Shown: piece by piece, positions 11,854 through 59,545 of the stretch
Position numbering within the stretch: position 1 is the first letter of the stretch
How the letters are laid out: the number at the start of each line of letters is the position of its first letter
Assembly (NCBI RefSeq): GCF_028389875.1
Contig: NC_084665.1
Coordinates: forward strand, 93,477,435 to 93,541,434
Source of the DNA: Rhea pennata
Lineage: Eukaryota > Chordata > Aves > Rheiformes > Rheidae
Length of the DNA: 64,000 bases
Direction of reading: 5' to 3'
Notes under the pieces: model-generated
Told to the model about the DNA's origin: nothing
Database searches by the model: none
What the model saw: the letters and a program-made list of their open reading frames with translations, nothing else
Program-made: the position numbers and the translations under genes

Positions 11854-14558
<2,705 letters not shown>

Positions 14559-14636
14559 CAGCAGTTGGGTCTTTGGCTAAAGCATTATCCAAGGCACTCG
14601 TTATTGACTGGAAGAGATTCATCTTCTGAGTTTGCC
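14559..14636 (-). CDS. BCKDHB: BCKDHB exon 2
   Basis: This 78 bp exon has acceptor catgcag|GGC and donor GCTG|gtatgc. Joined to exon 1 it reads [20 protein letters not shown] and continues LAKDPTA, differing from human E1-beta at only two positions (Ile for Val, Ala for Ser). This is the first helix of the E1-beta fold, at the start of the region shared with pyruvate dehydrogenase E1-beta. Entry and exit phases are both 1, agreeing with the flanking exons. Translation beyond the donor into the intron gives unrelated sequence, which confirms the boundary. Confidence 0.95.
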
Positions 14637-16526
14637 CTGCATGAAAGGGATTATTTAGCTATTTAACTCATTTCAAAACTCAAAATATATCAGAAAACAT
14701 TGGAGCAAAATATATTACTAAAAACTTAGCTAGCAGTTAGCCCCTGGCTATACTAAGGTCTTCTGCAGTATGGATCAAAAGAAAATCTTCAAAAACAAAA
14801 GAAAATACCTACATCCCCTTCTTCACCTCTAGTGCTGCAAGGACAGACTATAGACCTAAAATCAAAGATTGGAGACAGCAATAGCTCTGTCACCACTGTT
14901 GTGACCAACTCAGATTCTGCAAGCAAGTAGAATACTTCCTTATAAGAACCTGATGAAAAAGAAATTATCTGGCTAAAATTTGGTAGCATTTAAATGACAA
15001 AAACTGTGTTCAGAGCGTGACTGAGAATACAGCCTAAGAGAACATTACCTACTAGCCTACATAGCTTGTCAAAAAAAAAAAAAAAAAAAAAAAAAGTATT
15101 TATTTAGGTGAAAATCCTAGACAAACGTGAGAGCAGGATTTGGAATCCAGAGAGAAAAACATTTCCTTTCCAGTAGCTAGAGCATCTCTCAACAACCATT
15201 CAGTTCCCCTCTCAAACTGTTAATTAACATTAGCATATTTTATTAAAGACCTGTGTCATGCCATACCAGAGCTGGGTAACTGAATTTCAGGGCTCAGAAG
15301 CTTCACTTGTTACACTTGTCATGACCTTTTAAGAAGGGGATGCTACTAAAGGAACCGTTATAGGAACTGTTCAAACTATGACAGCTACAAATACTCACAT
15401 TTACAAATTCAATGAAGGGGAAGCAAAACAGCCATTGCTTCTCTTTCCCCAGTATCCACATAAGTATTTAGGTATCCTTTCCACAAGACACAAACCTTCC
15501 AGATTTTGATATGAATAACCACCTATCATTCCAGCAACTGCCAGAAACTCTTTATATGAACTGTTGTGACCAGCTGCTCTCACTTATAAGAGAAAGGCTC
15601 CTGTATGAGTCCTTGTAGGGAGAGAGAAACTAATTGCATCCTTCCGATTTGAACTGTGGAGTTGGTGATGTAGCATCTTAACAGTACCAAGATCAATACC
15701 GGCTTCACTGTATTTTAGTTTCACTATTTTTCACCGAATTTCAAAGCATGTTTTAAATCACAGGGAACTAATTTTATATTAACAGCAACAAAATCAGGTC
15801 TGTCCCAAAAGGGTTCCTTCGTTATAATCTCAAGTAGAGATCTGTAGCATGCAGGCTTTACTCTGCAACATCCTGAATGCCTATGCTTCCATCAGCCTAT
15901 ATTTAAAGGCTAACGGAAACTGCTCAGAGCTGGTTTTGACTTCATTACGAAGCTGCAACACCAATGCATCAAAATAAATAATTTTCTTCCAGAAGACAGC
16001 GGCTCATGTGAGAGAAAGGGCTATTCTATAGCAAGAAGGCTTCTTCCCCGGGAACTCATCACCAGGGGCTTTCATGGAGATGTCTCAGAAATGAAGTCAA
16101 AACAGGAGATTTTGCTCACTGCTAACCCATCCACGTGGGCTCTGAACCTGGCTACCTCAGACTTTCGCTAGGCAGCAGCCTTTATTAATCACAGGCCGCG
16201 GTTTACGAGTGTGATGGAGAGGTGGGCGCTGAACAACCCGCCGATAAGCCCTGCACCACTGCTGTGGGGGCGCCTCCGAGGGCCACCCGCCAGGCCCCGC
16301 TCGGGCAGGCAGCCGAGGGGCCCCCACAGCTCGGCGCACCCGCGGCGCTCCCGCAAACACGCCGCCGAGCTGCTCGGGGCGCAGCGGCCGGGAGGCGCCA
16401 GCGGGGACATTTCCGCCCGTCCCGGACGCTGCCGCCGCGCCTGGCAAGCGCCCACCCCGCGGGAGGCGGCGCGGAGCCGGCAGCGGAGCCCGGCCCCCGC
16501 GGGGAGGACCCCGGCCCGGCTCTCAC
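14637..16526 (-). other. BCKDHB: BCKDHB intron 1
   Basis: A 1.9 kb intron with GTGAGA at the 5' end and CAG at the 3' end. Its first 300 bp (toward 16.2 kb) belong to the CpG island. It holds an A25 tract at 15071-15095 and otherwise nothing I recognise. Confidence 0.85.
15071..15095 (+). repeat. A25 homopolymer
   Basis: An uninterrupted run of 25 A in BCKDHB intron 1. No retrocopy is recognisable upstream, so I treat it as a simple repeat. Confidence 0.9.
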
Positions 16527-16677
16527 CGTACGCGCTGGGCGCCGGGTCCGGCTGGAAAGCGAAATGGGCCGCGGGCCGGCGGGGCGCGCCCGGCAGCGGG
16601 GGCAGCCGCCCCCAGAGCCCGCCCCGGCGGCGCGCCGCCACCGCCGCCGCCCCGCGCAGCGCCAGCCCCGCCGCCAT
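16527..16677 (-). CDS. BCKDHB: BCKDHB exon 1, coding part (mitochondrial transit peptide and mature N-terminus)
   Basis: BCKDHB is the E1-beta subunit of the mitochondrial branched-chain alpha-keto acid dehydrogenase complex. With E1-alpha (BCKDHA) it decarboxylates the keto acids of Leu, Ile and Val using thiamine diphosphate. This exon encodes 50 residues plus one base. It begins MAAGLALRG, is rich in Ala and Arg with no acidic residue in the first 40 positions (a matrix-targeting profile), then reads AHFAFQPDPAPSAYG, matching the human AHFTFQPDPEPREYG stretch. The ATG at 16677 is the first true ATG in frame; a longer reading to 16716 would need a GTG start. The donor is TACG|gtgaga, phase 1. 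The region upstream of AHF is shorter than in human. The homology and the join to exon 2 make the call firm; the exact start is slightly less certain. Confidence 0.93.
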
Positions 16678-36481: not shown

Positions 36482-36731
36482 TCAAAGCCAGTCTGGCTTA
36501 ATATGTAGTATTTCTAAAAGTAATTGATGTAGGGTGACTTCTCCTAAGATGACCTGAAGAAGAGTTCTGCACTAACATCTGCATCAATGTCTTGGAGAGG
36601 TGAATAGATGAAGAATATAAGCAAAGCTGCCTAGGTGTCGATGAACCTCATTGAGATAAACTCCATCAAAGCTTGCTGAGCTTCCTGCTGCAGTGTTTGT
36701 ACATAGGGAAGACATTTTAGGACATGCCATC
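36482..36731 (-). pseudogene. NR0B-family nuclear receptor pseudogene, exon 2
   Basis: Exon 2 follows a good acceptor (ttttgttttgacag|GATGG) and joins exon 1 in phase 1, placing the intron directly after LFN(S/P), where I count the DAX-1 junction. It reads LKCLPYVQTLQQEAQQALME (HIGHLQQEAHWVLCEV in SHP), SAELFFR (IAELFFR in DAX-1), then in a shifted frame VILGEVTLHQLLLEILHIK (compare IIGTVSMDDMMLEMLCTK in DAX-1). The last part covers the helix 12 (AF-2) region. An in-frame TAG lies at 36631-36633 and a frameshift at about 36553. The 83 codons to the TGA at 36484 closely match the 81 residues I count for DAX-1 exon 2. It cannot encode an intact receptor. Confidence 0.88.
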
Positions 36732-39700
36732 CTGTCAAAACAAAAAGTGAAATAAGGAATCTTGAGCTTGTTCTGTGCCCTTCATATTGATGACTTCTTT
36801 TCTCTAGAAAACAACAAAAGCTTACTAAATATACTTTTTGGAAAAAGAAGATAGACTTAGTTAAATAATTAGAATAAACACTGAGCAACACTGTAAGCAC
36901 ATTGGAATCTGACCTCTTACATTAAATATTCTAGTCTATCCATCACCCATTCCCTGCTGCTGTTGTCTGCACTTCCTAGACTAAGCTGATGCATTATGGC
37001 TGACTACCTTTGCTACCTGGATGCCTTCATTTGCAGTCTGAACAAAGCATAAAGAAGCTCTGAGATGTATGATGGATTCACAAAGGTAACAAAGCCAATT
37101 ATACTCTCAGTTTTTGTCCTCTCTTTCCTCAGCCATTTGTGAAGAGGGAGAGGTCTGTAGCATTGCTCAAAGATCCCTGCAGTCCCTGAGGGATTTTCTG
37201 CAGCAGCCCTCAGCATACTTCCAGCCCACCTCCAACTCCTGACCATCCGGGTCCCTGTGCTTACAAAGAAGTTGCTGGAAGGCAGCATCATAGCTCTGTT
37301 TAGTGCTGCTGGAATGAGAGGAATACACACACAGCCAGATATACATTTCTCTTAGTACCCTTTTATTCTATTCTCCACCTATATGTGCTCTGAAGTGGCC
37401 AGAGAAAGAGGCAATATCTGAGACATGCTTCTGCAACCAGGGTAGCCAGAAAAGAAGGTCTGGAAAAGTCATCTTCCTCTCGAGGATTACCACTAGCTGC
37501 AAGCTGTGACAATGGTTCCAAGTGTTAGATTTTATCACAGAAAAGAACCTGGCAAGATTTTGTATGTTCCAAATGAAATTACAATTGTTTATATCCCTTC
37601 AAATTTGCTTAAACTTCCCATTTCATCCCCTTTTATATGCAATCAACCATGCTTTTAATTTATAAATAATAGGAAAGATCTAGTGCTGTGATCTATTGCA
37701 CTAATATTCAGTCAAATATAAAAGTTCCCAGCTGAGCTGTAGACTTCTGAAGAGCATCATTTATGATAGAAGTCCTATCACAGTCCTGATGGCCCTGATG
37801 TAATAACAACCCTATTTTCACTACTTCTATCTGTTCACGGTGTAATTACATAGTTTTTCAGATACCCGTTAAAAGCAACAGGAGCTCTTCCACTTCATTC
37901 TTCATGCTGTTCATACATGATGGGATAGTTCTACCTACTCCTTCCTTTCACTTGTTACTTGAATCCTAAAGAAAGCCTTGCAGTTGGGTTTCTTCACCCA
38001 TGCACACTTTAATCTCTCAAAAGCTATCCCAGCTAAGGCATCCCTAGGGAGAACAGGCATGGCTCTGTGACCTGGAATTTATTGGAGATTTTGGATTTAA
38101 TGCAAGGCTGTTTATTTTCTCTGAAGGCATACTTTTTCATTCACAGATCCTTACTGGCCCAGGTGGACAGTCGGTACCCCTGCCAGTCTCCTGCCTAGAA
38201 GTACTGTGCTAGCTTTATTGCAGTCACAAAGACAGGTGTTCCCTGAATTTTGATTCCGCTACTCTCTTCTAAGGCTCTGAATCATAGTTACCATCCTTCC
38301 AAAAAAGAAAGTAGGATGGTATTATCTTTAAAACCTAGTATTTCTGCTCTTTAATTCTCTGAGAAAATTGTGCTGTAGCATGAGGACCTATACCCCTTGC
38401 TGCCTGCCTGTCTACCTATCAGGTTGTCTCTAGAGGGATTTCTTAAGAGTTTGTTTAGGGCGCAAAGCCCTGTTATGCTTGTTTATCATGCTTCATGTCT
38501 AGTCACTTGCCTAGCTGTGCTTCTGAAGCTGCATTTCTGGATGCCTTGTTGACCTCTCACCCAGGTCTAGACTGATTTGTGCCTTATCCTTTCCCTTTCC
38601 TTACCCAGTTTTGGTGGTCCTGATTGATAGGATTTAAAACATTCAGATTTGAGCTCATACAAGTTATTCCATGAATCAGAGAAAGACTAAGCATTGTCAC
38701 TGCCAGAGATTGCTTGAAATACACTTAGACTAAGGCCTGCAAAATATTAAGATTTAGCCAAACATCAAGACAGAATTAGAGGCCAGCTGAAAATTTGTTT
38801 GCATGTATGTAGAAAACATTTTCTGAGTTTGTTGGAAAGTATTTAAAAAATATTAAAAAGAGTCTCTGAAATGATAATTGTAGAAATTAATTTGCAGCAA
38901 AATTGGTAAGAAAGAGAGGTTTGGGCTTTGTATAAGCCCTCAGTATCTGTTCCAGTCCAGAGTTTAGAATGTGACTTTTTGTTTCATGTGGAATCAAGCC
39001 AGGCTTACCTGAAGTCCTCCCAGCCTCCTTTTGGATACAGTGGAGAGAGATACCTAAGATAGGGAGTCTTCTTGAAGCTCTTGGCTGTTCCGTAAGCAGC
39101 ATGAAGGACTGCTCAGCCTCTCATGCAGTAGCCAAGGGCAGCAGCAGCAGTAAAGAAGCATGAATCTAGAACATAACTTTCTTGCTGCTACTTTCTCCTT
39201 CATAAAGTGAAAATCACATTTTATCTGCAGAGATAAGAAAAATGCTTGCTAGTTAAACTGTATAAGCCACTGCAAATGAGAGACGTATTTGCTCATCGCA
39301 CTGGATAAAACTTTCTTTCAGCTTGATTTTATTGTGAAAAACTGAGAAAATAAATTGCAATGAAACAAATTCAACTGGTTGATGCTATAGCATAGACACA
39401 CAAGACAATACAAAAATCTGGATGACAATACATATTAAGACTCAGAATCTGAATCCTACTGGAAACAAATATAAAGCCACTATAGCCTTTGAGAAGCTTG
39501 CAAATCGTTCACCACAAGAAATATCATGGAATAACTGAAGCATTAAAATATCTTTTTGGTGTAGTCCCAAGCATAGCACACTGCTGACAGTGCAGCCAAC
39601 TGCAGTGATCTCTGTGAAAGGAGTCAGGGATCTGAGCCAAAGAGGTCTGGAGTCAATAAGTCTTTCCATTTACTTTAGCGGACTTAGAGTTTGGCTTTTA

Positions 39701-40334
39701 ATGACTCATTCACTATGTGGTGCTGACCTAGGCAACCTTCCTTCTAAAGAGGCTAAACTTGGCATCAGAAGTGAAAGGATGTAATCACTTGTCTGAGTCT
39801 GTTTCATGACTTCTCTTCCAGGCTTTGAATGTAAAGCTACTAAAAGGATACATCAAAGGAGCAATAAAAGAAAAGAAAAGCATTGTAACCTTAGCACAGT
39901 ATACTTTTGCATCATCAATGATAATCAGATGACGTAGATTATGTTACCTACTCCAATGGTCTGTCTGTAGAGGATGTCTTGTTAAAATAGCTCTAAAATT
40001 CATGTCACATATCCATCTTGCCTTCACTGTATTACAGATGAAGCAGCTGTATTACCTTTTAACTGAAAATCAGTTTGAAGTGACACAGTTAATTTCTTAT
40101 GACTTAAAATCTGTCTACCAGAATTTGTTTTGGCTTACAGTGGGTAACCCACTACACACATTTAAATAATCTAAGTAAATTACCTCAGGAAGACAGTGAT
40201 TACATTGTAGAATATAAATTTTGAAAATACTTAGTGACATTCATAGAAATAAGTAAAAATGAACATAGGTCTATATGCAAAATGGCAAATGTCCTGCTAG
40301 ACACATATTCATCTATCTTTCCAGGAAAACTTAC
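36732..40334 (-). other. Intron of the NR0B-family pseudogene
   Basis: A 3.6 kb interval with intact GT (gtaagt) and AG (gacag) ends. Its retention shows that the locus arose by DNA duplication or descent, not by reverse transcription. It contains a 9 bp inverted repeat at about 38.29-38.33 kb and no recognisable transposon. Confidence 0.8.
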
Positions 40335-40901
40335 CAGAATTGAAAAGAACAATTCCTTTAAGGTAGGCATATTCTTTTGCACTTACATCCAGGTCCTATA
40401 ATTTCCACAATAAATTCTTCATCTTCTGAACTTCTGCTAAAGATGCTCCAAGTGAGGAACTGCCTAGTTCATCACTAGCTGTGGAAGATTGATTGAGGTG
40501 ATTTTTTTTCAACAAACTAGGGGCTGAAATCTCTTTCAGCTCAAAATCCACCCCTTTTGCCAGGCCTAGGACAATAAGAGGGGCCCAGTTCTGCTGTGTG
40601 AGAGCAACCTGATCCTCCCAAAGCACGTGATGAAAATAAGGCAAGTTTCTGATAAAAGCTTAAGTCTTCAAGAGCACTTCAGAAGCTCTTCTGCACTTGA
40701 CTTCTGGTGTATTCAGGACAACTCTTCTGCTATCCACACAACAGCAGCCACTGCTTCCTATGGAGCAGCGTGGTCAGTAATACTGCTGGAGTCGCTTGGT
40801 TTTATTTTGATGCTCTTTGTTAAGGATCTCGTTCAGGATGCTTTTAGCGTGGTGTGTGTCACACTGACATTGCTAGATTTCTCAGCTACCTGATTTGCCA
40901 T
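40335..40901 (-). pseudogene. NR0B-family (SHP/DAX-1-like) nuclear receptor pseudogene, exon 1
   Basis: NR0B proteins (DAX-1 and SHP) are nuclear receptors with a ligand-binding domain but no zinc-finger DNA-binding domain; they repress other nuclear receptors. On the minus strand this exon keeps, in order, an LXXLL-like element (KSILNEIL; compare PAILYALL in SHP and GSILYSML in DAX-1), SRRVVLNTPEVKC (like RPVALKSPQVVC in DAX-1), AFIRNLPYF (AFLRNLPSF in SHP), WAPLIVLGLAKGVDFE (WGPLFLLGLAQDAVTFE in SHP), PSLLKK, and AKEYAYLKGIVLFN (TKEYAYLKGTVLFN in DAX-1). The donor is TCTG|gtaagt. In-frame stops lie at 40774-40776, 40660-40662 and 40396-40398. The best ATG (40901) needs a one-base shift near 40.86 kb to join. 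About 189 codons agree with SHP exon 1 length; the DAX-1 N-terminal repeats are absent. Confidence 0.88.
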
Positions 40902-43451: not shown

Positions 43452-44292
43452 CACAGAATCATAGAATCAGTAAGGTTGGAAGGGACCTCTGGAGATCATC
43501 TAGTCCAACCTCCCTGCTCAAGCAGGGTCACCTAGAGCAGGTTAGACAGGGTGGCATCCAGGTGGGCCTTGAACAGCTCCAGAGAAGGAGACTCCACAAC
43601 CTCTCTGGGCAACCTGTGCCAGGGCTCCGTCACTCTCACAGGGAAGAAATTCCCCCTCACCTCAGGCGGAACTTCCTGTGCTTCAATTTCTGCCCACTGC
43701 CTCTTGTCCTGTCACATGGGACAACTCAAAAGAGTTTGTCCCTGTCCCCTTGACACCCTCCCTTCAGGTACTTGTACACATTGATAAGATCCCCCCTCAG
43801 TCTTCTCTTCCTCGGGCTGAAGAGGCCCAGCTCTCGCAGCCATTCCTCATAGGGCAGGTGCTCCAGCCCTCTGATCATCTTCGTAGCCCTACGCTAGCCT
43901 CTCTCCAGTAGCTCCCTGTCTCCCTCGTAGTGGGGAGCCCAGAACTGGACACAGTACTCGAGATGAGGCCTCCCCAGGGCTGAGGAGAGGGGCAGGATCA
44001 CCTCCCTCCACCTGCTGGCAACACTCTTCCCAATGCACCCCAGGAGACCATTGGCCTTCTTGGCCACAAGGGCACATTGCTGGCTCATGGTCAACTTCCC
44101 AGGTCCTTCTCTGCAGAGCTGCTCTCCAGAAGGTCAGCCCCCAGCTTGTACTGGTACCTAGGGCTATTTTTCCCTAGGTGCAGGACCCTGCACTTGCCCT
44201 TGTTGAACCTCATGAGGTTCCTCTCCGCCCAGCTCTCCAGCCTGTCCAGGTCTCTCTGAATGGCTGCACAGCCCTCAGGTGTGTCAGCCACT
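43452..44292 (-). mobile_element. CR1 LINE, 3' fragment, inverted copy
   Basis: About 840 bp in minus orientation, tail (ATTCTATG units, reverse-complemented) at 43452 and 5' truncation at 44292 in the ORF2 C-terminus ([20 protein letters not shown] frame). Compared with the copy at 31988-32699 it extends further 5', carries a roughly 20 bp deletion near 44.1 kb, and otherwise matches almost base for base where I compared them. Confidence 0.95.
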
Positions 44293-47200
44293 AAATCTCC
44301 ACATAGTTATTAGAAATCTACTGTCTTCTTGTTATGGTAGCTTAACAAAAGTGTACAAGACAAAAAAATAGTTTTGTAGCATCTAAAATCCTGATGAACT
44401 GTTTCCCTTTGTAGGTATTTCTAGCATAAGGTATGGTCATGGTAAGGTATGGTCACATCACCGTTATTTTTTTCTGTTTTTCATTTATATACTTTATTAG
44501 CCAACAAAATACACACAAATACTCACTTCCACCATATTTTCTCTGCAATAATCAAAATTGCTGCTCAGGCATCAGTATGCCATTTAGACCATTAAAAAGA
44601 TATTCTAAATCCACATACAAAATTGCTACAGACAAGTTGTGGATATTCACACCATTGTTTGGATGTCATACTCCAAGCAAGGCTGCCATTTCCACCTTTC
44701 CCAACAGCAATACTGGTTTGTACATCTGTATATTACAGGGTCAAGTTTAATAAAGTTGCACTTTAGGTGACTCACACATGATGCAAACTTTCTGCTGAAA
44801 TTCCTGGAATTTCCAGGTTTGCAAAGACTGCCTGAGAGGTATAAATGGTCCCAGAGCTGCTTGCTTCTTACTTGATAATAGCCATATGTGAGTGCTTCAG
44901 GAAGACTGTAAGATATATACAGTTCTTCTCATGAGTATTTTCCTTGCTTTCAATCATTCTCAGCTTAGGAGCTTCCTGAACCACAGTGGTTTTATGCATT
45001 TACTAATTCTACAGTATGATCTCATGCAGTCTGCCTGTGAAGTCAGATGAACTTTTAGCAATAACAACCTATGCAAAGAGCTCCATGGATGCTGTATGTG
45101 AGACAGCATTCAGTGGATTTGGTGACTCCTTCTCTCTTTAGCTCCTTTTATTTTACAAATCTCTGCAAGTCTCCCTTTTCCAAAATAGAGAGACCTAGCT
45201 TACAAAATTACTCTTTCTTCAGAGCAATACTGTGCCTTTGATCGTCTTGTTAACCTTTCTTTGAAACTTTCCTAGAGCTACTATATCCTTTCTAAAATAT
45301 TTTCTAAGGGGGAGGGGGAGGAGCATCAGAATAATACACAGTATCTAGGACTTAAGGGAACATGGATTTATACAGTGTCAGAACAAAATTCTATGTTTTA
45401 TCTTTCCCAGACATCACTCCTGAACAGTGAGCTGTTGTTTCCATGGATTTGTATGTGTATCACAGCCCCAAAATTTTACTCCTGATGATAGTTCAGAGGC
45501 TGTCATTTTGTATGTGGAATCAGGATAGTTTTATCCTGTGTGCATCTCTTGATACGTACATACACTGAAATTCATCTGTCAGTTGATACCTAGTCAGTGA
45601 TTGTTACAATACCTTTCTGCATTTCCTCTGATAACCCTAGTCCTACTCTGAATAACTTAATAACATGAGCAAACTTTCATATTCTGAAACTAAAAGGCAC
45701 TGATGAATCATTTACATTTCATAGAAAGCTATTCTTCAGAATAGGGAGTGTTGTGATTTTTTAAAAAAAGAATGATGTAATTTAACTACAGAGCAGAAAA
45801 TCTGACATTGTCCTTGCAGTAGAATGTATATATACACAAGCATATGTACACATATAGTGCTGGATTATAGATATAGACACACAATGTGTATGAGTCCTGG
45901 GTTACTATTAAGTAGTAACCCAGCTACTAAGCTAGCCTACTTTCCTGAAAGGTGAGACTGGAGACGGATATATTTCTATCTTTTTGTCTTCTTTGTAGAA
46001 GACAAAATCTTCCACAATTATTTTATGTAGGCTACAAGAAGGAAACATAAGTAGCTGAGAGCAGTCTTTTAGGTCACCCTGTCACACCACTCTGTTATAT
46101 GCAAATGTTCCTTGATTCTGTGATCTCTTATGTCTCATACAGACATTTAATTGTTCTATAAACATGTATCTGACTTTAGAACAGGATTTTCTATGGAAGG
46201 TTTATACATTTTTCTTGGGAGGAGTTGGGTCACTGGTACTTTCCAGGAAACCTGACTTCACTTGATGATGATGAAAAGAGACAGCAATAAACAACAACCT
46301 TTTTGAAGGTTTCCATCTACTGCTTGTCCCATGGCATATATCATCCTTCATGGGCAGTAAAGGTGGATAAGTATTCATTTCTCAGCTAGAAGAACCAGGA
46401 GCTCCATTTCAGACTGCCTACTTTGGTTAGGCACATAGAGGGAAGCATCTTGTATGAGTTAAAACCTGCTCAGCCTCCAGGTCCAAAACTGAGGCTCCGA
46501 CTAAACTGAGACAAGCTCTGAAACAATGTCTTTAACTTACGCTCAGATAGGTAAGCATAGCAAGCCAATATCTGTCCCTTACATCTGAAACAGAAATATA
46601 TAAATTATAGGACCAGTTAACTTAAGCGTTTGTTTAGCTTATCTTGAAAGTCAGTGGATCTTCTCAAATAATTCAGGTTAAGCACACACCTAAAATAGTT
46701 TGCTAGATTTGATCTGGAAAAATCAGCATCTTCTTGAATGTAGCTAATAGAGTACAAGTGTTAAATTAATAGAGAGGTGGCTGCTGCAAGAGGCCCTGTA
46801 TTGAAACATAAAGTATCACTGACACCAGGCCTGTTTTATTTTTGCCTCTGATGCCCAAGTTAGAGAAAATGCAAATGCATCTGAACTTCTGACCAAAACC
46901 TTGCAGTGAAACTGAAGCTCTGAGAGTCCCCCTTTCCAAAAGCCCACCCCAGGCATTTGCATTTTACCCATATACTACTGTTCTTGATTTCCAAACACAC
47001 TGAAGTAGCATTTAAGGAGTCTTTTTGGCAGGTGCTGATCACTGGCTGAAGAAAGGAGAGTGTTTGTCATCATTTTTAGAATGGAGATATTTTGTTACAA
47101 ATTTTATGCTGCCTGACTGTATTTTAGCTGTTCTAAATGTGAGCACAAACACATATCCAAATCCAAGACTAGAATATTAGTAGAGGAGGTAAAGCATCAG

Positions 47201-57660: not shown

Positions 57661-59214
57661 CTTCTCTTTTAAGAAACTCTATTTGCCTCAGCGAATACAG
57701 TCACTCTCAAATCTAGACTTCCCGCTAACTTCAGGTAATGTTACGGAGGATAAAAAGAGAGATCACTTTGGACACAAACCAGCCACCAAACAAAATGTGA
57801 CTATTAGCCACGTTGTGGCAGAAGATGTCAGAGAATGAGATTAGAGGAGTGTGCAAAGGGAGAAGAAAGGATGGGAAGCAGGTATGTGAGGGAGAAAGGA
57901 AGAAAGAAAATGTTTCAGTGCCTCAATGGGCAAGGCTTGGCCCACTGAATTACGATGTGCAGGAGCTGCGAGCCCTGCTCACTGCCAGTGCCAGGACACA
58001 GCAGTTAAGTTGGGTCTTCAGGTCCAGTAGCTAGCAGCTACTCCATTCTCAGATAAGTATATCCCATGATTTCCATAGATCTCAAAGCAAAGTTTACGTC
58101 TCAGACTAGCTTACAGCCAAAACAGTCTCTGTTTTCTCTCTATTTGGGTCTATTCATCCACAAGGCTCATCATCCTGTGAAGTTACTGAAAGGGCATAGG
58201 ATACATACTGTAGGAGAGGGTCTTGTGTCTTAGGGCAGACTGCATGTGATCTGGAGGAAGGTACAGCAAGTCAGAAATAGGTGTTCTCCTCAAATGGTGA
58301 ATTTTTAAAAACAAAATAATTGCTATTTCTAAAAGATTCCTCTTAAATATAATGAGAAGTCGATGTTGTTAGGAAGAACTCCACTATCAATACTATGGTG
58401 CCCTCAAGTGGATGCAGAATAGTCAAAAATTTGCTCTAATCCTTATCTGTCTTTCTTGTTACTATAATACATGGTTTACAACCTGAGATTGTAAACACAG
58501 TTCATAATGCCTGCCTTAAGAGTCCTTTGCAATGCCAGAGGAATAAGTGCAAGAGTTCCACATCAAAAGTCTCTAAATTACATATATAGGACTAGTAGAG
58601 CCATGTTTGGAAACTGTACAGAAAATAACATTTATTTCAACATTTCTTTTTTTGCTGCTTGGATTTTCCTTCCCCTCCACCTGGCTGCACTCCAGTGTTA
58701 GAATTTGCTGTGGTATTAAAGCTTTTTCAAGAAACTGATTTAGCAAAAAAAGCTGCCTTGGTTACAGCATTACCTTTCCAAGAGGAAGCAGGAAAATCAA
58801 GGGGCTTTTGGGCCCACGTACAGAGCAAATACCAAACTTGATTCCCTCTCCAGATGCAGTATCGTTTTCCTTCCTCTGAAAGTTACCAGTTGATGCCAAA
58901 TTGCCTGACATCTGCCCTTAAGGATGGGCCGTCCAGTCACCTCATGGCACCAGCAACTGTGAAATACTTTATTTGGTCTGCCACCAAAAGACCTCTCAGT
59001 CGCTGCTCCAGCATACAGCGCTAGCAAATGCTTCTCCGTCCTCCCCGACGCCCTGCAGGAGTCGGTCTTCTCCTGCTCACCAAACCTGGGAAACAACCAG
59101 GGAGCTGCTGAGACAGAGTCACCACCCAAAGTCACAGAGGTGCCAGGACTGATGACAAGCTCCCATCCCATTCTTCCAGACCTCAGGAGATGGGGAACTG
59201 TAAATCTGATGAGT

Positions 59215-59545
59215 CGCACTGTTGCCACTTCCAGGTTATTGATAGAGATATTAAACAGGACAGGTCCCAACACAGACCCTTTGGTACTCCACTTGTCACC
59301 GGCCTCCAGGTAAAGTACAGCCATTTAACCACTACCGTCTGAGCCTGATCATCCAGTGTTTTGCCCATCTTGCTGTCCGTCCGTCCAGTCCATAATATCC
59401 TAACTTGACTACAAGAGCATTGTGGGAGACAGTGTCAAAAAACCTTGTGAACACTAAGATAAGTGACATCCACCGCTCTCCCCTCATCTCCAAATCCAGT
59501 CATTTCATCATAGCAGGCAATCAGGTTGGTGAGGCATGATTTATC
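59215..59545 (-). mobile_element. Old CR1-type LINE fragment (reverse transcriptase region)
   Basis: In minus orientation this matches the RT region of CR1: 'ggttattgatagagatattaaacaggacaggtcccaac', a 'gtgtcaaa..ccttgtgaa' block and 'ctctcccctcatctccaaatccagtca', which correspond in order to 23.57-23.87 kb of the long CR1 copy. It is far more diverged and probably belongs to a different, older subfamily. It has no 3' tail and no open frame of note. Confidence 0.75.

Follow-up and report, generated by a model that had tools for sequence, protein, structure and literature searches.

A stretch of 64,000 nucleotides from Rhea pennata (the window, meaning this whole stretch) carries on its minus strand the remains of a nuclear receptor gene of the NR0B family, the family of SHP (NR0B2) and DAX-1 (NR0B1). 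But which gene is it? Is it a damaged copy of one of the two familiar members, or a gene of its own? And is it really dead? Very likely the answer is a third NR0B gene, distinct from NR0B2 and NR0B1 and named NR0B2L below, of which this locus is the unitary pseudogene. From 40901 to 36482 it can be read as a full-length, two-exon NR0B-type gene with an ATG at 40901, a phase-1 GT/AG intron and the native stop, which follows KPDWL, the residues in which the ostrich orthologue also ends. In a frame-aware alignment with the ostrich protein (P0001) the identical columns are 154/192 for exon 1 and 67/85 for exon 2, the blocks of both exons extending a few codons beyond the splice edges. A reading made from the letters alone (the sequence-only reading) had proposed a broken two-exon NR0B gene on this strand with GT/AG in matching phase, and the alignment and the intron agree with it. 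Three of its four stops (40774, 40660 and 40396) stand in the ostrich alignment; the fourth, at 36631, is secondary, because it results from a frameshift at ~36642. The two shifts that it placed near 40.86 and 36.55 kb are both real, but it missed two others: frameshifts are found at ~40874 in exon 1 and at ~36642, ~36600 and ~36552 in exon 2. One codon has been lost from exon 1 near 40548. The disabling changes number seven across ~820 bases (three nonsense codons and four frameshifts), and the window copy is unable to encode the protein.

Table 1. Features of the window, with positions counted from its first letter.
Feature	Positions	Strand	Remarks
Pseudo-exon 1, third NR0B gene (NR0B2-like)	40335..40901	minus	start codon to phase-1 donor; 3 nonsense codons, 1 frameshift, 1 lost codon
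Single intron, 3.6 kb, GT...AG kept, phase 1	36732..40334	minus	position and phase as in NR0B2 of the same genome
Pseudo-exon 2	36482..36731	minus	to native TGA 36484-36482; 3 frameshifts
Nonsense codon TGA	40774..40776	minus	alignment to ostrich orthologue
Nonsense codon TAA	40660..40662	minus	alignment to ostrich orthologue
Nonsense codon TAG	40396..40398	minus	replaces a tryptophan invariant among compared rows
BCKDHB, first three exons matched (16572-16516, 14652-14560, 11940-11863)	11863..16572	minus	open; GT or AG at edges read

What places this locus in the NR0B family? The minus-strand read-through, with X at the stops, served as query. It matches the Pfam family Hormone_recep (PF00104) with 36.5 bits (cut-off 23.5), and its best matches among solved chains are SHP (4nuf, 3.5e-28) and DAX-1 (3f5c, 1e-24). 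An orthologue profile that excluded the window reaches 266.7 bits on exon 1 and 43.8 and 7.3 bits on exon 2; none of 20 Markov-simulated windows scores above 2.5 bits. This profile search was a test that the sequence-only reading might have failed, and its result was strongly positive. The other marks of the family are seen best in the orthologues. The predicted model of the ostrich protein has a mean predicted local distance difference test (pLDDT) score of 76.9, with 142 of the 274 residues reaching at least 90, and presents a well-supported receptor domain; ranked by E-value, its first PDB matches are SHP/EID1, then DAX-1/LRH-1. This domain begins at about residue 60 of 274, leaving no DNA-binding domain upstream; third-clade members that start with M and exceed 245 residues are 251 to 417 residues long, and the precomputed Pfam assignments for NR0B2-like proteins among the matches listed are PF00104 or none. 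The place and phase of the single intron are those of the open NR0B2 gene of the same genome, the one reference for this comparison. LxxLL-like docking helices are present as two motifs in the orthologues, box 1 (ILYxIL) in 92 of 105 full-length members and box 2 (SLLKKIL) in 151 of 167. Both are damaged in the window, where ILY has become ILN (ILNEIL) and KKIL has become KKNH (LLKKNHL).

Is the window copy SHP or DAX-1 itself? It belongs to neither clade, and its locus is not the NUDC/TENT5B locus of SHP. Against profiles of the three clades it scores 379.9 bits for the third clade, 221.7 for DAX-1 and 200.2 for SHP, and its exon 1 shares 80% identity with the NR0B2-like protein of ostrich. 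NR0B2 shares with this third gene the intron position and phase, a receptor domain without a DNA-binding domain, a similar length and the LKKIL motif, whereas its exon 1 is only 46% identical to the same ostrich protein and it lies on another contig (C23:5001434-5002661, both exons open). NR0B1 shares the domain fold and the ILYxIL motif, whereas the corresponding identity is 44% and its stop-free matches lie on C1. In line with the sequence-only reading, both known genes are elsewhere in the genome. When the ostrich protein is searched against it, the window is the best match (6.5e-92), followed by NR0B2 on C23 and NR0B1 on C1, with no second copy of NR0B2L found in that search. The lineage of the window has lost NR0B2L while NR0B1 and NR0B2 are kept.

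Is the gene alive in other animals? The top matches to the read-through are named 'nuclear receptor subfamily 0 group B member 2-like' (ostrich 77%, kiwi 76%), and the best 120 of 157 include many neoavian birds, a crocodile, turtles and a lizard. A lizard query (best 120 of 427) and a shark query (best 120 of 848) add further lizards, frogs, salamanders, caecilians, sharks, rays and a chimaera. These orthologues are predicted coding gene models, some marked low quality by their source, whereas the window copy is dead; the rows listed are clusters at 90% identity, some of them unnamed. Clade profiles built from rows of our own tree assign the 211 distinct proteins listed to the third clade (167, alongside which the window also falls), DAX-1 (40) and SHP (4), and only one protein, P0191, has a margin below 25 bits (11.7, towards DAX-1). 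Such open models in birds, reptiles, amphibians and cartilaginous fishes (the check that the sequence-only reading had itself proposed), the kept intron, and the presence of NR0B1 and NR0B2 elsewhere bear out its view that this is an NR0B locus in its own right which the lineage has lost. An origin as a retrocopy is ruled out by the intron. Many bird records named NR0B2 ('NR0B2 protein, partial') fall in the third clade and not in SHP, which is a naming problem for comparative studies.

How old is this third gene? In a first tree of 46 chosen rows, 41 of them from the 211 listed proteins, three clades stand apart. SHP includes three shark and ray rows (support 100/99), the third clade includes five from cartilaginous fishes (99/96), and the support for DAX-1 is 99/100. 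The third clade is recovered in a 43-row tree from which the mouse and TR4 rows are left out (98/92), and again when the long-branch protein P0191 is removed (100/98.8). Within it the window groups with palaeognath rows (99/95). In trees with few palaeognaths it stands beside kiwi (97/87 with 46 rows, 99/86 with 43); once tinamous are added it is no longer tied to any one of the palaeognaths, and constraining it to cassowary gives p 0.052, to ostrich p 0.064, and to kiwi or tinamous ~0.38 each. By these placements a rhea would be the favoured source, with an emu less likely. Because sharks sit in both the third clade (S1) and the SHP clade (S2), with both present in a single species in Hypanus (P0163, P0197), the duplication that gave rise to NR0B2L most likely preceded the divergence of cartilaginous from bony vertebrates, that is, took place in early jawed vertebrates. 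P0191, from the shark Carcharodon, has no firm place in any of the three clades; it may represent the DAX-1 of sharks or else a fourth gene of the NR0B family.

Could the duplication be one of the early vertebrate genome duplications? The neighbours of the dead gene offer a clue. TTK kinase exons lie upstream, beyond the window (C3:93551502-93561862, minus strand), and BCKDHB adjoins it downstream; the dead gene therefore sits between TTK and BCKDHB. Of the queries for BCKDHB (its sequence checked), TTK, ELOVL4, SH3BGRL2 and TENT5C, BCKDHB alone matched inside the window. ELOVL4 gave no match in the window and 60 kb upstream, or in 200 kb of C23 around NR0B2, a stretch in which 2,500 bases are N. 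Matches to the TENT5 family occur at four sites of the genome: C3:92444710-92446441 (best TENT5A), C23:4944264-4948862 (best TENT5B), C11 and C1. The dead gene lies 1.07 Mb from TENT5A, and only 52 kb, including NUDC, separate NR0B2 from TENT5B; the human genes have the same TENT5 neighbours. This linkage is consistent with copies made by genome duplication, one gene pair being short of proof, and such a duplication would be the most likely source of NR0B2L.

Taken together, these observations make it probable that genome duplication had equipped the earliest jawed vertebrates with three or more NR0B receptors, and that the third, beside TTK and BCKDHB, lives on in many birds, reptiles and amphibians as well as in sharks but was apparently lost in mammals and galliforms and again in this palaeognath, with P0191 perhaps a fourth. 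Several points weigh against the account of the locus given here. The duplicated block is backed by just one gene pair besides the receptors, TENT5A/B; SH3BGRL2, the expected second pair, has no match in the window and 60 kb upstream, or in the 200 kb around NR0B2; the corepressor mechanism proposed below for the living protein is drawn by analogy; and when P0191 is kept in the tree, two other groupings, S1 with SHP (p 0.055) and S1 with DAX-1 and P0191 (p 0.058), are not rejected at 0.05. Might the tetrapod NR0B2-like proteins and shark S1 then be distinct from one another, both being variants of SHP or DAX-1, and the third clade be younger than the jawed vertebrates? The two unrejected groupings would allow it, as would the Callorhinchus S1 record, which bears the name NR0B1. 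Yet a shark SHP coexists with S1, and with P0191 present the tests reject S1 with DAX-1 (p 0.003), NR0B2L with S2 (1e-6) and S1 with SHP and P0191 (0.004). Without P0191, joining S1 to DAX-1 (p 0.0022) or to SHP (p 0.0026) is rejected as well. Separate origins are, on this evidence, unlikely.

How far has the window copy decayed? Across 48 bird and 3 reptile proteins 57 columns are invariant (the 48 were drawn from the first 55 proteins listed, after exclusion of four by length and three as low-quality or unnamed). The window deviates at eight of these, one of them a stop; when the 48 bird models are left out in turn, they deviate at a mean of 0.9% and at most 5%. Its terminal branch is 0.15 long, against 0.048 for ostrich, 0.038 for cassowary and 0.073 for kiwi, and because of this long end branch a loss of NR0B2L tens of millions of years ago is suggested, as a rough estimate. 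The function of NR0B2L would then have been lost in the palaeognath lineage of the window and its sequence left to drift, with NR0B1 and NR0B2 retained. Might the broken locus still serve as a non-coding RNA or a regulatory element? Its splice sites, start codon and stop codon are intact; such sites ordinarily survive in a moderately old pseudogene, however, and a residual use of this kind seems improbable. Might the gene be intact in the species, the lesions being errors of sequencing or assembly, or one dead allele? A single assembly was examined, which leaves room for this, but seven disabling changes accompany amino-acid changes at seven otherwise invariant sites, and errors are not expected to raise substitutions so. 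The three open BCKDHB exons of the same window, a control for clean assembly here, also speak against this explanation, which is highly improbable. A recent origin as a damaged copy of NR0B2 or NR0B1 from the same genome would explain the shared family and the intron place and phase shared with NR0B2, but exon 1 is far closer to the ostrich NR0B2-like protein than either gene is, and the trees put the window within the palaeognath part of the third clade, so this idea retains next to no probability.

If NR0B2L is dead here, what would it do where it lives? SHP and DAX-1 are known to dock on other nuclear receptors; they take part in bile-acid and steroid pathways and in sex determination, and most studies treat them as a pair. 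Living NR0B2L shares their layout: it encodes the ligand-binding domain of a nuclear receptor but no DNA-binding domain, and it carries ILYxIL in a helix close to the N-terminus and SLLKKIL within the domain. In the ostrich model a short helix at residues 22-28 bears ILYEILN, at low confidence, and this helix and the SLLKKIL motif would fit the docking mode of SHP and DAX-1. By homology, NR0B2L most likely acts as they do, docking on other nuclear receptors via LxxLL-like helices and silencing them. If so, the standard vertebrate list misses one receptor-silencing branch of endocrine control. A third NR0B member older than tetrapods, kept by many lineages and lost by some, would alter the interpretation of NR0B work in birds and reptiles, since NR0B2L is easily mistaken for SHP, and lineages without a working copy, such as this one, would be natural knock-outs.

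How much of this was known? The NR0B family is, as are National Center for Biotechnology Information (NCBI) records that give the orthologues the name 'NR0B2-like'; what is new here is the history of the third gene among birds, with its loss in this palaeognath. Fonseca et al. reportedly described new NR0B members in cartilaginous fishes in 2020, which probably include the S1 clade. A literature search that covered few subscription journals listed no paper on a third NR0B gene by name in birds, and none was found for the name NR0B3. For NR0B4 it gave one paper, on ultrasound in mice (PMC10405840), two passages of which mention the gene in passing, and one 'NR0B2-like' match in the literature is a mutant allele (PMC4423451). 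An expression table for the snapping turtle has a gene named NR0B2-like, which by its name is a candidate for the third NR0B gene (PMC8420019).

Is this the only bird lineage in which the gene has failed? Among the listed NR0B2L matches, some of whose rows are unnamed, no galliform or mammal was seen by name, while galliform NR0B1 does occur among the listed matches (P0184, P0198). That the third gene went unnoticed in human, mouse and chicken would follow from its apparent loss in mammals and galliforms. Two NR0B2-like models of the goose Anser cygnoides are abnormal at exon 2: P0093 has a stretch in a shifted frame and P0118 continues into the intron. Both look patched around a damaged exon 2. 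A separate decay in waterfowl is suggested, as is loss or decay of NR0B2L in Galloanserae.

The remainder of the window between 41 and 64 kb holds open frames that were judged by eye. At 43892-44306 (minus) they resemble the C-terminal part of the reverse transcriptase of a CR1-type long interspersed nuclear element (LINE), and at 58800-59324 (minus) a frame of 175 codons has a start resembling a LINE-derived frame.

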